A DNA stretch of 64,000 nt from Treponema sp. GTDB taxonomy: Bacteria > Spirochaetota > Spirochaetia > Treponematales > Breznakiellaceae. Positions 28,125 to 47,651 of the stretch are shown one piece after another (position 1 is the first letter of the stretch; each line of letters begins with the position of its first letter). The stretch lies in NCBI GenBank assembly GCA_009777335.1, contig WRMC01000003.1:1-64000 (forward strand), written 5' to 3'. A program made the position numbers and the translations under genes. The notes beneath the pieces are model-generated. The model worked only from the letters and a program-made list of their open reading frames with translations, was not told the DNA's origin and did no database searches.

Positions 28125-28289
28125 ATGGAATTAGGTCCAGCAACGGAACAGGCTATTTTGGTAGCCATCCGCAAGATAGCACATTCCACTGATTACGGGC
28201 AGGTAATAATCAAGCTTGATAAAACCGCCCCTAGGCAGGAAATTGTTATTGAGACTCAGGAAAAAATACGAGTAGAAAAAGAGGCTTGA
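28125..28289 (+). CDS. hypothetical protein
   Basis: RBS gggaggg. Confidence 0.55.
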   Translation: MELGPATEQAILVAIRKIAHSTDYGQVIIKLDKTAPRQEIVIETQEKIRVEKEA

Positions 28290-28313
28290 CAAACTCGGTA
28301 TATATCGTATACT
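28286..28313 (+). promoter_or_regulatory. promoter TTGACA-16-TATACT
   Basis: consensus boxes, same spacing as 43731 and 53918. Confidence 0.8.
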
Positions 28314-28319
28314 GATAAT

Positions 28320-28425
28320 TGGTATTATCGTTGCTGACCGATATGCGGAGGCGACAGTGATCCCATAGGAAACTCAGCTGGAAAACCCAGCCGAACTTCC
28401 CGTGGGCTCATTGTCGCCTTTTTTT
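28320..28425 (+). ncRNA. putative leader/sRNA: conserved TGCTGACCGATATGCGGAGGC block plus long terminator hairpin
   Basis: 21-nt block identical to 43770 region; GGCGACA..TGTCGCC then T7. Confidence 0.6.
28350..28425 (+). terminator. intrinsic terminator with long imperfect stem
   Basis: GGCGACA 28350-28356 / TGTCGCC 28412-28418, T7. Confidence 0.75.
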
Positions 28426-28441: not shown

Positions 28442-29749
28442 ATGAAAATGCTGTATAAAAACAATGCACCACCCCCCGGTGTTGTATACTTTAACTACCG
28501 CACATCGAAGGCTGATCTGCCCGATCCGCAGGGCCTTCCTACACTAATAAAGTCTGAGGCCATGTCTGCCATCACCAGGAACGAAGAAAGCCCCTTGTAC
28601 CGTACCGAGGCCATAGATTACCCCGTAGCAGGTACTGGTGGCATTTATACCGAGGCTTTCTTTGAATCTTTTCTTAACCGCATGAAAGCCCATCCCTTTG
28701 GCGGGAATAAGCTTGGGCATAGTTACCCTGAAAAGAATGACTTTTACACCATCGGTGGCAAGATAGAGAAAAACGGAGATGGAACGGGGACGGTCTTTTT
28801 CAAAATCGTAATACCATCCATGGGCTATGAAACCACTAATTCCGGCTTTATTCGGGACGTACTGGCAGGGAATGTCCATTTCTCTCTTGTAACCCTGCCC
28901 GAATATGAGCTTAGGCAAAATGCCAAGACCAAGGAGATGGAGAAACACTTCGTAAAATCCATTGGAAACGAACGCAACGATGCGGTTCCCTTTGAAGGGG
29001 GAGCCATGCCACAGAGGGTAAGTAATAGCGAATTTGACATTGAGCAGGTAAGAAGTCTGATTGAAAAGGGTCAGATTGATTATAAATCGAAAGGGGATGA
29101 ACTCATTCAGGATGGCCTAGTAACTTATTCCGCATTACGCCGATATGCCGCTAATGCCGATAACCGAACACCCGGACTGACTGACCTCGTATCTCTGGCA
29201 GATAAACTACGAAACAGGAGACATAAAATGGACGATGAAAAAGTCGTAACCAAAGAAGAGGCCATTAAAGTCCTTAACGGTCTTTTTATGAACGGTCTTG
29301 TAACGGTGAAGGATATCCTTGACGGGATAGGCCCCAAGGCCACCGCTTTCCTTCGCAATGAACAGGATGATGCCAATACCGCCCTTGCCAATTCGGTAAG
29401 AGAGTTGCTTGGGGATAAACCCCTGGACAACCTTAAGGTACTGCTTAACACCAAGGCCGAGAACGAAAAGTTCCTGGTACAGAATGCCGTTCGAGCCCAG
29501 GTAGGCACCGAAAGGATTAGCAATGCCAAGGGTGAAGAGGTGGAAAACCCTGCGTACCAATACGCCATGCGTATATGTAACGGCAAGGTAGGGTCTGACC
29601 TTACTGCTGCTCTTGAGGCTCTCAAGAACGATTCGGTCATGCAGACCCTTCTGGCCTCCCAGGCTGACCATCAGTCGGAGTTCAACCGCCTTGAAGGCGG
29701 TGGAAGTGCCCAAAGCAATGCGGCTTCCCCCGCTGTGATGGAGGTGTAA
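28442..29749 (+). CDS. prohead protease fused to scaffold-like C-terminus
   Basis: position upstream of capsid; GHSYPEKN..SLVTLPEYEL; C-terminal helical region. Confidence 0.55.
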   Translation: MKMLYKNNAPPPGVVYFNYRTSKADLPDPQGLPTLIKSEAMSAITRNEESPLYRTEAIDYPVAGTGGIYTEAFFESFLNRMKAHPFGGNKLGHSYPEKNDFYTIGGKIEKNGDGTGTVFFKIVIPSMGYETTNSGFIRDVLAGNVHFSLVTLPEYELRQNAKTKEMEKHFVKSIGNERNDAVPFEGGAMPQRVSNSEFDIEQVRSLIEKGQIDYKSKGDELIQDGLVTYSALRRYAANADNRTPGLTDLVSLADKLRNRRHKMDDEKVVTKEEAIKVLNGLFMNGLVTVKDILDGIGPKATAFLRNEQDDANTALANSVRELLGDKPLDNLKVLLNTKAENEKFLVQNAVRAQVGTERISNAKGEEVENPAYQYAMRICNGKVGSDLTAALEALKNDSVMQTLLASQADHQSEFNRLEGGGSAQSNAASPAVMEV

Positions 29750-43730: not shown

Positions 43731-43758
43731 TTGACAAAAAAGCCCGGTATGGTATACT
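43731..43758 (+). promoter_or_regulatory. promoter TTGACA-16-TATACT
   Basis: as at 28286. Confidence 0.8.
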
Positions 43759-43764
43759 GGGTAT

Positions 43765-43843
43765 AACGGTGCTGACCGATATGCGGAGGCCCTCAATCCC
43801 CTTGCGACTTTAACCAGTGGCAGGAGGATTGGGGGCCTTTTTT
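43765..43843 (+). ncRNA. putative leader/sRNA with same 21-nt block
   Basis: TGCTGACCGATATGCGGAGGC at 43770-43790 abutting terminator. Confidence 0.6.
43788..43843 (+). terminator. intrinsic terminator
   Basis: GGCCCTCAATCC/GGATTGGGGGCC then T6. Confidence 0.8.
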
Positions 43844-43922
43844 ATTGGCTACCCGCCCAAAATGGCGGGGTTGCACATAAAGAAACGGGGTCTTACAGTT
43901 TTGTCAGAATATGGGGGCTGGT

Positions 43923-44087
43923 ATGCAGGATTTTATTGGATGCGTCAGGCATAAAGGAAAAATATACTGCTGGGACAAAAGGAACGAAACCTTCGTTGAA
44001 ATAGAACTAACTGATGTTCCCATAGAAAATGTCCCCAAAGAAGTTTATTCGGCATTGTTTAACATGATTGGAAAGCAGGAGGGCTGA
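43923..44087 (+). CDS. hypothetical small protein
   Basis: MQDFIGCVRHKGKIYCWDKRNETF; not in supplied track. Confidence 0.5.
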   Translation: MQDFIGCVRHKGKIYCWDKRNETFVEIELTDVPIENVPKEVYSALFNMIGKQEG

Positions 44088-44088
44088 A

Positions 44089-44304
44089 ATGGCTGTATAC
44101 ATGCAATTTAGGGGGTATACCTACGACCCCAAGGACACATACCGGGCTGTTGGGCGGACTATGGAGTGCTGGATTGACACCCTGGCAGATAGAGCCCTGT
44201 TGCCTCAGGTCCCGACCCGTGACTTTGACGGCGGGTCCATAGCCATCTGCAAAGAGACCGATACGACCTACGTCCTGTGGGCCACGGGCTGGGAGGTTCT
44301 CTAA
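44089..44304 (+). CDS. hypothetical small tail-fibre-region protein
   Basis: ORF with RBS. Confidence 0.6.
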   Translation: MAVYMQFRGYTYDPKDTYRAVGRTMECWIDTLADRALLPQVPTRDFDGGSIAICKETDTTYVLWATGWEVL

Positions 44305-47300
44305 TGGACGTAGTAACCCTTAAAGAGGCGAAAAAATATACTGATTCTGTTGCCCTGAATGGGGTGGCTATACAATACCCCAGGGTAAACCCTACCAGCA
44401 AACGCTGGGAGGTCTTTAACTCTTCCACTGGTAACTACATTGATACGGGCGTGGTGGCAGAGGGTAAAGACGGCGTTAACCCCGTTTTCCGTGCTGGCGG
44501 GGCCGAGAACCGTACCCTCCAGGTAAATTACCCGCCTTCACCAGATTGGACTGATATCTACACCTTCCCCGAGGGTGGGGGCAGTATAAACCCTGCTGAC
44601 CTGATATCAGCCGACCCAGACAATACCCTTATCCTTGACGCTCAGCAGAAACTGAAGGTTCCAGCCCAGTCCCCAGGTGGGGGCTTTACCCCGAGTACGG
44701 CCCAGACGGCAGCCATGAACAGCGGGGTTACCGCTGAATGGAAAGGTAACGTAGATACAGCCCTCTCCGCAATAGACATCCCAGAATCACTTGAAGATCT
44801 GAATAACCCCACGGTCAACCCGTTCATTCGTGCAAATGACTTGCCCGACTTGACCCCTATAAACCAAGAGCTGGCCCGGCTGGAAAACGACAAAGCCGAT
44901 AAGGCCGACCTGCCCAATGTCCCTGCTTTGATAGAGGCCCACAATACCAGCGGCACAGCCCATGCTGATATGCGTCAAGATATCAACGATGCCAGGTCTA
45001 TTGCCGAGGGCCGGGCTCAGGCCAAGGTGTTCGCCACCTTTGAGGCTATGGAAACATGGCTTGCCGATCAGGCCAATGCTGACAGCCTCAACGTGGGGGA
45101 TAATCTTTATATCATCGCCCTTGACGTGCCCGATTACTGGTGGGATGGGACCCAGGCCCAGGAACTGGAAACCGAGAAAGTAGACCTGACCGATTACTTG
45201 ACCGAGACCGAGATTGAAAACCTCTTGGCTGGTAAAGTCGATGTAGCAACCTTTATCACCTACCAAGCGGCAGTACAAACCGAACTTGACCGCCTTGAAG
45301 ACGAGAAGATGAACCTGGTGGACAGCCCTGTTGACGGGGAGCTACTTGTCACCGATGCCGATGGTCAGGCTGTAGGCTCAGGCCGTAACTTCGACACTAT
45401 AGCCGATATCCCCCTCGTTAAGGAATACATCCAGCAGGGCCCTAACCAATACCCTACCTGGTACTCCCAGAGTGGACATCACCTAAACCTGGTAGACACT
45501 TACCACATTGCCATGACTATCCCCGGTCAAGGTACTGCTGATTATACCATTAGCAATAAAAAGCCCCTAACTACTAATTCTGGGCAACAGTTTAGACTTG
45601 AATCCTATCAAGGCCCGGTACGCATCATCGCAGAGGGCTACGGCTCTGCATACGAAAACATAGAAATTGAATGGTGTACCCTTGCCTCTGGCGGGGGTGG
45701 AATTGACGATATCAACGATCTGGTATCCGATGAACCAGACAATCGCCTAGAGGTTATCAACGATAAATTCTTTGTAGGCGGGGACGCAACCATAGGCCCC
45801 GATATCAGCCGTGTCTACAACGAACACATAGACGCAGAAAAGAAACGCATTGACGAATTACAACCGGGGGACTTTGTTGTCAGCCTAGAGATGCACGAGC
45901 CTTATGGAGACCCCGGCGGCGGTTCTATAAACTTTGAACATCACGTCATTGAGTTCCAACCCTACGGCGGGGTTATTAGCCTATCTGGTAGTACCCATAA
46001 TGTTGTAATCCGCAGTTTCGGCGATGTGTATACTTCGGTGGTTCCCATTGACGATATCTTTGTTGACGCATCCGGCGACTGGGACAATGTGTTCTACGCC
46101 TATGTGGGCGATCCTGCAGGGCACACGAAGCGGTGGGATAATAGGGAACTGCTGGGGGCTATTAGGGAAATAGACCCAGATGCGGGTGGAAGGAATACTT
46201 TTACTGTTGTTCCTGATTACGCAAGACCGCTTCAAGTTATAGGCACAACAGTAGGCACGCTTGTAACCGTACCCAACGACGGATTTTTACAGGTGGCAGT
46301 TGGGCAAAATGTTAGAACAGATGTGCGGATTAATGGTAGCACCACCGCAGCATTTATTATCGACCCAGCACCGCAAAACTCTACCAGTATTCCTACGCAA
46401 GTAAAAGAGGGCGACACGGTAATGGTAACGATTTCGGGTGGAACGACACCGCAGTATTATGAACTACGCTTATTTTATCCAAGAATCGTATGGGCAACCA
46501 GCGATGCCGCACAATTCCACACTAAACTGATAGGGCCTCCCGATCACGATAACATGGAGAGTATCAATCGTATCACTGCGAACAACGGTGAGTGGAAGAA
46601 TGACATAGGCGATGGGTATATGCTCATTGGCTCTGCGTCTAGTTCTGCCTGTTATGGGCGGATATTTATCAACGATGAACCTTTTGATCAGTTTTATATG
46701 AGTGCTGGATACCTTGCACAAAAAATTGTGCAAGTATCAAAAGGGCAGACTGTCCGCTATAGCATAACTGCCGGAGCAATATCACAGGTAACTGCTAAGT
46801 TTATCCCGCCGAAAGCAACAGCCCCCATAGCCCTTACTGGCGTTGACATGGTATCTAGCACCGAAAAGGGCAAAATAAACCTAGACCCTGTTACTAAAGA
46901 GGCAAGAATCAATGGCCTAGACCCTGATGATCTAGATATCAATACCGATGACCTGGTAGCAAAAGACCAAGGCACCGCCAACGCAGGTAAGTTGCTAGGC
47001 ATAGGCACTGATGGCTTTGTCGCTCCAGTAGAAGCAGAGTTTGCCAGCGGTCAGGGCAGTGTCTATCGTGAGTTTGACCTAACCGATCAACTTGACGGCA
47101 CTAAGACCACGTTTGACATAGACCCCACCATATCCCCCATGAGCATCCTCGCCTTATACTACGCAGGGCAGCGGTTAGTGGTCAACAAAAACTACACGCT
47201 GGATATGGATGCTAAGACAATCACCACGTTATTAAGCACTCCCCCTGACGCATTAGAGGGCAGGAGTTTGATACTGGTGGAGGCATCCAGGGGTGCGGTG

Positions 47301-47651
47301 GGGCCGAGGTTCCAGTCAATAACTGTACCTGGCGGGAATCATACAGTGCCATTGGATATTTCCCAGTACGATACTTTTTATTTACAGAAATCTACCAATG
47401 GAGGAAACACTACTACAATCCCTAATTTTGTAGATTCGGCAGATGCTCCGTTGGGGAAAGAGATCACGTTTATTTTCCAGGTAGTTTCTACTGGTGGTGG
47501 TGTAGCGGGTAATACTACAGGTGTCGTATGGGGAAGTGAGTTTTTTGGTAGAGCCATCCCTGGAATTGGAATGGGAGAACCCATAGGTATCAGACTAATT
47601 AAAGTTGCAAATGGACGTTGGGTACGAATGGCATTTGCATGGTCGGCATAA
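44304..47651 (+). CDS. tail fibre protein
   Basis: 1100+ aa, LKEAKKYTDSVALNG N-terminus, repeats shared with next gene. Confidence 0.7.
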   Translation: MDVVTLKEAKKYTDSVALNGVAIQYPRVNPTSKRWEVFNSSTGNYIDTGVVAEGKDGVNPVFRAGGAENRTLQVNYPPSPDWTDIYTFPEGGGSINPADLISADPDNTLILDAQQKLKVPAQSPGGGFTPSTAQTAAMNSGVTAEWKGNVDTALSAIDIPESLEDLNNPTVNPFIRANDLPDLTPINQELARLENDKADKADLPNVPALIEAHNTSGTAHADMRQDINDARSIAEGRAQAKVFATFEAMETWLADQANADSLNVGDNLYIIALDVPDYWWDGTQAQELETEKVDLTDYLTETEIENLLAGKVDVATFITYQAAVQTELDRLEDEKMNLVDSPVDGELLVTDADGQAVGSGRNFDTIADIPLVKEYIQQGPNQYPTWYSQSGHHLNLVDTYHIAMTIPGQGTADYTISNKKPLTTNSGQQFRLESYQGPVRIIAEGYGSAYENIEIEWCTLASGGGGIDDINDLVSDEPDNRLEVINDKFFVGGDATIGPDISRVYNEHIDAEKKRIDELQPGDFVVSLEMHEPYGDPGGGSINFEHHVIEFQPYGGVISLSGSTHNVVIRSFGDVYTSVVPIDDIFVDASGDWDNVFYAYVGDPAGHTKRWDNRELLGAIREIDPDAGGRNTFTVVPDYARPLQVIGTTVGTLVTVPNDGFLQVAVGQNVRTDVRINGSTTAAFIIDPAPQNSTSIPTQVKEGDTVMVTISGGTTPQYYELRLFYPRIVWATSDAAQFHTKLIGPPDHDNMESINRITANNGEWKNDIGDGYMLIGSASSSACYGRIFINDEPFDQFYMSAGYLAQKIVQVSKGQTVRYSITAGAISQVTAKFIPPKATAPIALTGVDMVSSTEKGKINLDPVTKEARINGLDPDDLDINTDDLVAKDQGTANAGKLLGIGTDGFVAPVEAEFASGQGSVYREFDLTDQLDGTKTTFDIDPTISPMSILALYYAGQRLVVNKNYTLDMDAKTITTLLSTPPDALEGRSLILVEASRGAVGPRFQSITVPGGNHTVPLDISQYDTFYLQKSTNGGNTTTIPNFVDSADAPLGKEITFIFQVVSTGGGVAGNTTGVVWGSEFFGRAIPGIGMGEPIGIRLIKVANGRWVRMAFAWSA

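Follow-up and report, generated by a model that had tools for sequence, protein, structure and literature searches.

The stretch of DNA analysed here, which we call the window, covers the first 64,000 nucleotides of contig WRMC01000003.1 from a Treponema sp. assembly. It carries two copies of a unit in which a promoter is followed by a short hairpin and a terminator, one copy ahead of a head-module gene and the other ahead of tail-region genes (Table 1). The first-pass annotation had placed a promoter, a 21-nt block and a strong terminator before the head gene, and its coordinates (28286-28425) are right. It had taken the block (TGCTGACCGATATGCGGAGGC, 28332-28352) for an unstructured motif abutting the terminator. 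We find instead that the block is a second hairpin, whose 3′ strand is common with the terminator. A small upstream gene, absent from that annotation, also belongs with the element.

Table 1. Features of the two units in the window and of the genes around them
Feature	Position	Strand	Basis or remark
Gene of a 54-aa protein (MELGPATEQAILVAIRKIAHSTDYGQVIIKLDKTAPRQEIVIETQEKIRVEKEA) with distant likeness to DUF2292; candidate antiterminator that would bind the hairpin	28125..28289	+	Neighbourhood, HMM family, profile match
Sigma-70 promoter, copy 1, TTGACA-16-TATACT	28286..28313	+	Consensus match 11/12
Antiterminator-type hairpin, copy 1, GUUGCU-GA-CCG-AUAUG-CGG-A-GGCGAC	28330..28355	+	Core 28333-28352
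Intrinsic terminator, copy 1 (GGCGACA...TGTCGCC, T7 tract)	28347..28425	+	5′ arm starts inside the hairpin 3′ strand
Gene of a head-module protein (435 aa), first behind the putative copy 1 switch	28442..29749	+	L011 and L003 have orthologues behind this element
Promoter, copy 2, TTGACA-16-TATACT	43731..43758	+	
Hairpin, copy 2, GCU-GA-CCG-AUAUG-CGG-A-GGC	43771..43790	+	Exact 21-mer repeat
Terminator, copy 2	43785..43843	+	Overlap register as in copy 1
Tail-region genes behind copy 2 (43911-44087, 44068-44304, 44277-47651)	43911..47651	+	ORFs

The annotation had also pointed out that the block recurs at 43770 despite differing terminator hairpins. This holds: exact copies of the 21-mer lie at 28332 and 43770 and nowhere else in the window (0.00 copies expected from shuffles), and the second copy has its own promoter and its own, different terminator. 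The two terminators have only their base in common (GGAGGC/GCCUUUU). Both units fold far more stably than shuffled sequences (copy 1, -51.8 kcal/mol, z -7.8; copy 2, -44.2 kcal/mol, z -6.8), and the covariance model R1 scores the two hairpins at 33.1 bits (E 1.4e-5) and 32.1 bits, respectively. The T7 tract of copy 1 ends 16 nt upstream of the ATG at 28442. Outside the window, the host genome contains neither the block nor its complement when up to three mismatches are allowed. Searching Pfam and PHROG gave no match for the 435-aa protein behind copy 1 or for the 1124-aa protein behind copy 2.

A hairpin family that overlaps its terminator

An exact scan of viral contigs recovered the block before the same head gene in L003, and also in L011/L048, where a second copy lies 8.3 kb further on; two copies of the element occur in some phages. 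The annotation had named loss of the block with retention of the terminator in homologous phages as an outcome that would speak against it. Performing this comparison, we find the opposite, with the block kept in both homologous phages, whose downstream gene is 78% (L011) and 65% (L003) identical to that of the window; the loop of the terminator hairpin and the spacing between promoter and block differ from the window in both. Blastn and tblastn searches of INPHARED phages found no relative.

Several other matches were discarded. Five imperfect ones from the first search for relatives (L004-L008) lack the promoter and the terminator and are due to chance, and for other contigs, most of the 15-mer and 17-mer matches are coincidental or fall in coding sequence. 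Several exact 17-mer matches in other bacteria, which lie antisense to a GTFDPPHIG-type motif (genome contigs L012, L018, L029, L030 and L035), presumably that of nadD, raised the idea of an antisense target; we set it aside as a codon-motif coincidence because the host genome has no complementary site at up to three mismatches. A leader peptide (MRRRQ...) was also rejected; it is not conserved among the copies.

Relaxed pattern searches placed the block within a broader consensus, GCU-GACCG-NNNNN-CGGA-RGC with a terminator after it, of which it is one variant. The resulting family sample comprises 38 sites, mostly from unrelated phages. Because GACCG and CGGA were set in the patterns, most of which also demanded a T-run, part of the conservation at these positions comes from the search itself; no constraint was placed on the pairing, on the overlap register or on the 5′ flank beyond one T. 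The hairpin consists of an outer stem, a GA/A internal loop, a CCG/CGG stem and a 5-nt loop, mostly A-rich and never UNCG in the alignment of family sites. Folded in isolation, all 38 sites give this same two-stem hairpin (-5.8 to -9.1 kcal/mol).

Pairing across the fixed core carries the evidence for RNA structure. The two flanks pair with each other, forming three outer pairs in nearly all sites, and the next three flank positions hold 62 pairs against 40.8 ± 4.9 with permuted flanks. In the outer stem of a 37-row alignment, 40 cells are changed on both sides, compared with 19.9 ± 3.5 in shuffles, a count that none of 500 shuffles reached. Sliding the partner strand destroyed the signal, giving far lower values. 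Divergent members exchange the inner stem and keep the GA/A loop (UGG/CCA in L205, CCAG/CUGG in L242). The former belongs to a second hairpin class of treponeme phages, with inner stem and loop UGG-AAGAA-CCA, of which the L205 copy reads GGGCU-GA-UGG-AAGAA-CCA-A-GGCCC. Searching Rfam with the window element and 13 related loci gave nothing at or near a gathering score, and the only models overlapping the element, at L160 and L155, were far below threshold. Judged by Rfam and by the literature searched, which took in a minority of subscription papers, this hairpin-terminator family is undescribed.

At all 38 sites, the 5′ arm of the terminator begins 3-4 nt before the RGC, within the 3′ strand of the hairpin. 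The hairpin strand is the base of the terminator arm, and the two structures are therefore mutually exclusive; the part that the terminator loses to the hairpin is the base adjoining the U-tract. Since the isolated terminator is much stronger than the isolated hairpin, termination should be the default, and a switch would need a strong ligand.

A promoter matching at least 10 of 12 consensus positions lies within 90 nt at 20 of the 38 sites, against 1.6 expected. Four sites (L159, L175, L180 and L181) come straight after a gene and just lie between it and the next. The phages of the family infect treponemes and other hosts, and in them the element stands where terminase, prohead or tail genes begin. 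The next gene is the head gene in the window, L003 and L011, a DUF2213 prohead-type gene in treponeme phages, and in clostridial-type contigs a short gene ahead of that for the terminase small subunit (terS); second copies precede tail-region genes. The annotation's proposal of a family of leader elements, with a conserved RNA motif linked to readthrough of a terminator into late genes, is supported. Its analogies to Q and put fare worse. Q acts through a DNA site at the promoter, and put RNA works by itself on distant terminators. In the present family, promoter and block are separated by about 12 to 54 nt and a good promoter is missing from nearly half the sites, unlike a Q-type arrangement; unlike put, the motif overlaps its own terminator at a constant register and goes together with the gene of a small protein.

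Related sequences turned up in other settings as well. In L108/L198, a tRNA-like sequence lies between the terminator of the element and the next gene. A hairpin of this kind with no terminator sits just upstream of an integrase-like gene (MRPLKPHAPYC...) in L191, L193-L196, L199, L200, L205-L207, L216 and L217; its stems covary (AGCU/AGCU, GACU/AGUC, GCCU/AGGC), and several copies apparently adjoin a tRNA gene. The hairpin may therefore have other uses. On the minus strand of L205 (~2467), the integrase-like gene of this element is followed by a class-B hairpin (UGG-AAGAA-CCA) that overlaps a terminator.

The small upstream protein and DUF2292

Just upstream of the element, most treponeme phages and many further ones have a gene that encodes a protein of about 55 aa. 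No such gene was found adjoining the element at L125, L150, L152, L157, L160 and L170-L172. The window protein has no match in Pfam, including CAT and PRD domains, and most of the phage small proteins score below the Pfam cut-off for DUF2292. The relation to this family is distant. Comparing profiles, we find that the treponemal small proteins match canonical DUF2292 with E 5.3e-5 and a probability of 67%, and the protein upstream of the element in the viral contig L176 is itself a DUF2292 member (PF10055; 35.4 bits, curated cut-off 22 bits). AlphaFold2 predicts for the window protein an alpha-beta-beta arrangement, one helix and a beta hairpin (pLDDT 74), and the models of the window protein (moderate confidence) and the L176 protein (low confidence) have the same predicted order of elements. 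The clostridial-type and treponemal small proteins gave no match to each other in a profile comparison, the upstream protein being highly diverged. Compared with solved structures and by Foldseek, the small protein had no significant match; weak structure matches to NusA and Rv2908c (E above 5) have no evidential value.

Using an HMM of the small protein, we searched 200 genomes and left the hairpin out of the search. Twenty genomes gave 23 matches, and about 12 of these, including the window locus, have a hairpin-terminator of the family type within about 200 nt. Loci that combine promoter, hairpin and terminator were in this way reached anew. Among them are hairpin variants (L227 and L232) and members of the second class (L235 and L241). 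No recognisable element was found downstream of the small-protein gene at L225, L228, L230, L231, L234, L236 and L239; some of these loci perhaps sit in decayed prophages. L103, to which the head gene led, encodes the small protein and carries a further hairpin variant that overlaps its terminator. Iterated over 21,007 ORFs of the collected loci, the HMM stayed within the same set of proteins, and the next matches below threshold were one canonical DUF2292 and the L176 upstream protein.

We also collected 12 chromosomal DUF2292 genes above the cut-off, by Pfam alone and with no reference to the hairpin. Three of them have a hairpin overlapping a terminator directly 3′ of the gene: GGGACU-GA-CCAG-AAAG-CUGG-A-GGUUCC (L242), AAAAACU-GA-CCGG-AAAGA-CCGG-A-GGUUUUU (L244) and AAGACU-GA-CCGG-UCAA-CCGG-A-GGUUUU (L247). 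Applied to 4000 control gene ends, the same detector matched 28, of which 24 are themselves GACCG-type members of the hairpin family; this leaves a background of about 0.1%. In the Chloroflexi locus L248, GCC-GA-CCAG-ACAG-CUGG-A-GGC overlaps a strong stem with a weak T-tract, and the DUF2292 gene of L188 has a looser AA/A version of the hairpin. No form of the hairpin was found at the other seven canonical loci; a P1-like match in L245, on the strand opposite its DUF2292 gene, was treated as chance. The neighbours of the chromosomal genes include cysK, a radical-SAM NifB-like gene, a NifH-like gene and an ABC transporter; cysK, NifB and NifH were named by inspection, and radical SAM was confirmed by Pfam. 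The same body of literature gave no molecular function for DUF2292/YezD.

In L244 (~1600) and L247 (~1610), the UGA stop codon of the DUF2292 gene is the U-GA of the hairpin. This could add a coupling to translation.

A proposed antitermination switch and its alternatives

We consider it probable, with some reserve, that the element is an antitermination switch in which the DUF2292-like protein encoded upstream binds the hairpin and the late genes are read through. Polymerase, starting at the promoter or arriving by way of the upstream gene, would transcribe the short hairpin. By default, the longer terminator would form, take the 3′ strand of the hairpin, and the transcript would be released. 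Once it has accumulated, the DUF2292-like protein would bind and stabilise the hairpin, and the last few base pairs of the terminator, by the U-tract, would stay unpaired. Polymerase would then continue into the head genes and, at copy 2, into the tail genes. With one protein gene and two or more sites, several operons would be switched together. The sequence side of this model, namely the hairpin with its covariation and terminator overlap, the promoter, the repetition and the small-gene neighbourhood, can be read from the nucleotides themselves; we infer protein binding and the direction of readthrough from geometry and neighbourhood, and the timing is likewise proposed.

The ligand might be a host factor (a ribosomal protein, a factor of the NusA/NusG type or another RNA-binding protein) that binds the same antiterminator hairpin, the small gene being a mere neighbour. 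A good number of sites lack a recognisable adjoining small gene, and no homology can be detected between small proteins of the treponemal and clostridial types; both points speak for this reading. We nevertheless hold it to be unlikely, given that the small-protein HMM independently recovers hairpin loci and that true DUF2292 genes outside phages have the same element behind them. The hairpin could also be a loading site for processive antitermination, like boxB/nut or LoaP/dfn, at which polymerase would be changed for the whole late operon. It is small, has a short purine-rich loop and lies between promoter and terminator, as for LoaP (PMC12691694), and long operons follow it; the exact overlap with the terminator would, however, be unnecessary, and the UNCG-type dfn hairpin is unlike the loops here, which makes this rather improbable.

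Quite improbable, in our view, is a unit whose main product is a trans-acting phage sRNA (about 80-105 nt), for example one that decoys the small protein or works as antisense RNA, with the downstream genes expressed otherwise. A promoter with very strong terminators would indeed yield abundant small RNA, and the copies have nothing but the block in common. Yet the fixed overlap of hairpin and terminator is then left unexplained, the element stands directly before structural genes in unrelated phages, the four sites that simply separate two genes do not suit it, and the host genome, as described above, lacks a near match or complement of the block. Promoters and terminators are common between phage modules, and the two units could be ordinary insulators, their common block serving as a DNA operator or having been duplicated by chance; the base-pair covariation and the replaced stems argue for RNA structure over recognition of DNA sequence, and we regard this reading as very improbable indeed.

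Beyond the window, the preferred reading, an antitermination switch worked by the small protein, extends to a wider claim. DUF2292 proteins (YezD/OscA) may be miniature RNA-binding antiterminators that read a GA/A-bulged hairpin over a terminator, in bacteria at sulfur- or nitrogenase-like clusters and in phages as a late-gene switch with diverged specificity classes. We give this wider claim an even chance. If true, a domain of unknown function would gain a molecular function, and many phages of unstudied regulation would have a late-gene switch in common. A protein and RNA of very small size (about 55 aa and 22 nt) would further be at hand as a potential readthrough switch, and sulfur-linked genes of bacteria would be connected with late transcription in phages in a way that can be tested.

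Comparison with known systems

Like lambda N-nut boxB, Q-qut and HK022 put, the element would control phage genes through readthrough of a terminator. N and Q alter polymerase for many terminators, and put needs no protein (see also PMC11658703). The motif here differs in overlapping a single terminator; in contrast to put, it is one hairpin that has a strand in common with the adjacent terminator. In LoaP systems, a leader RNA hairpin between promoter and terminator is required for readthrough and LoaP is the dedicated readthrough protein, a part proposed here for the small protein (PMC12691694). The dfn hairpin, however, is of the UNCG type and separate from the terminator; LoaP itself belongs to the NusG paralogues and acts against NusA. 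On the protein side, the likeness to Pfam DUF2292 (YezD, OscA) comprises the L176 protein above the cut-off, the profile match of the treponemal proteins and the shared order of predicted secondary structure in the window and L176 proteins.

The RAT sites of the BglG/SacY/LicT/NagY antiterminators share the geometry seen at all 38 sites here, a hairpin that overlaps the 5′ arm of an intrinsic terminator between promoter and gene. At the SacY and NagY sites, the terminator overlaps the protein-binding hairpin, and SacY binding favours the antitermination hairpin and stops closure of the terminator (PMC12502629). The hairpin sequence here is a different one and would control phage late genes, and the proposed partner is a lone protein of about 55 aa with a predicted alpha-beta-beta order. 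Membership of the RAT systems fails because this protein has neither a CAT nor a PRD domain; by analogy of geometry, the protein-stabilised RAT hairpin is the closest working model for the element.
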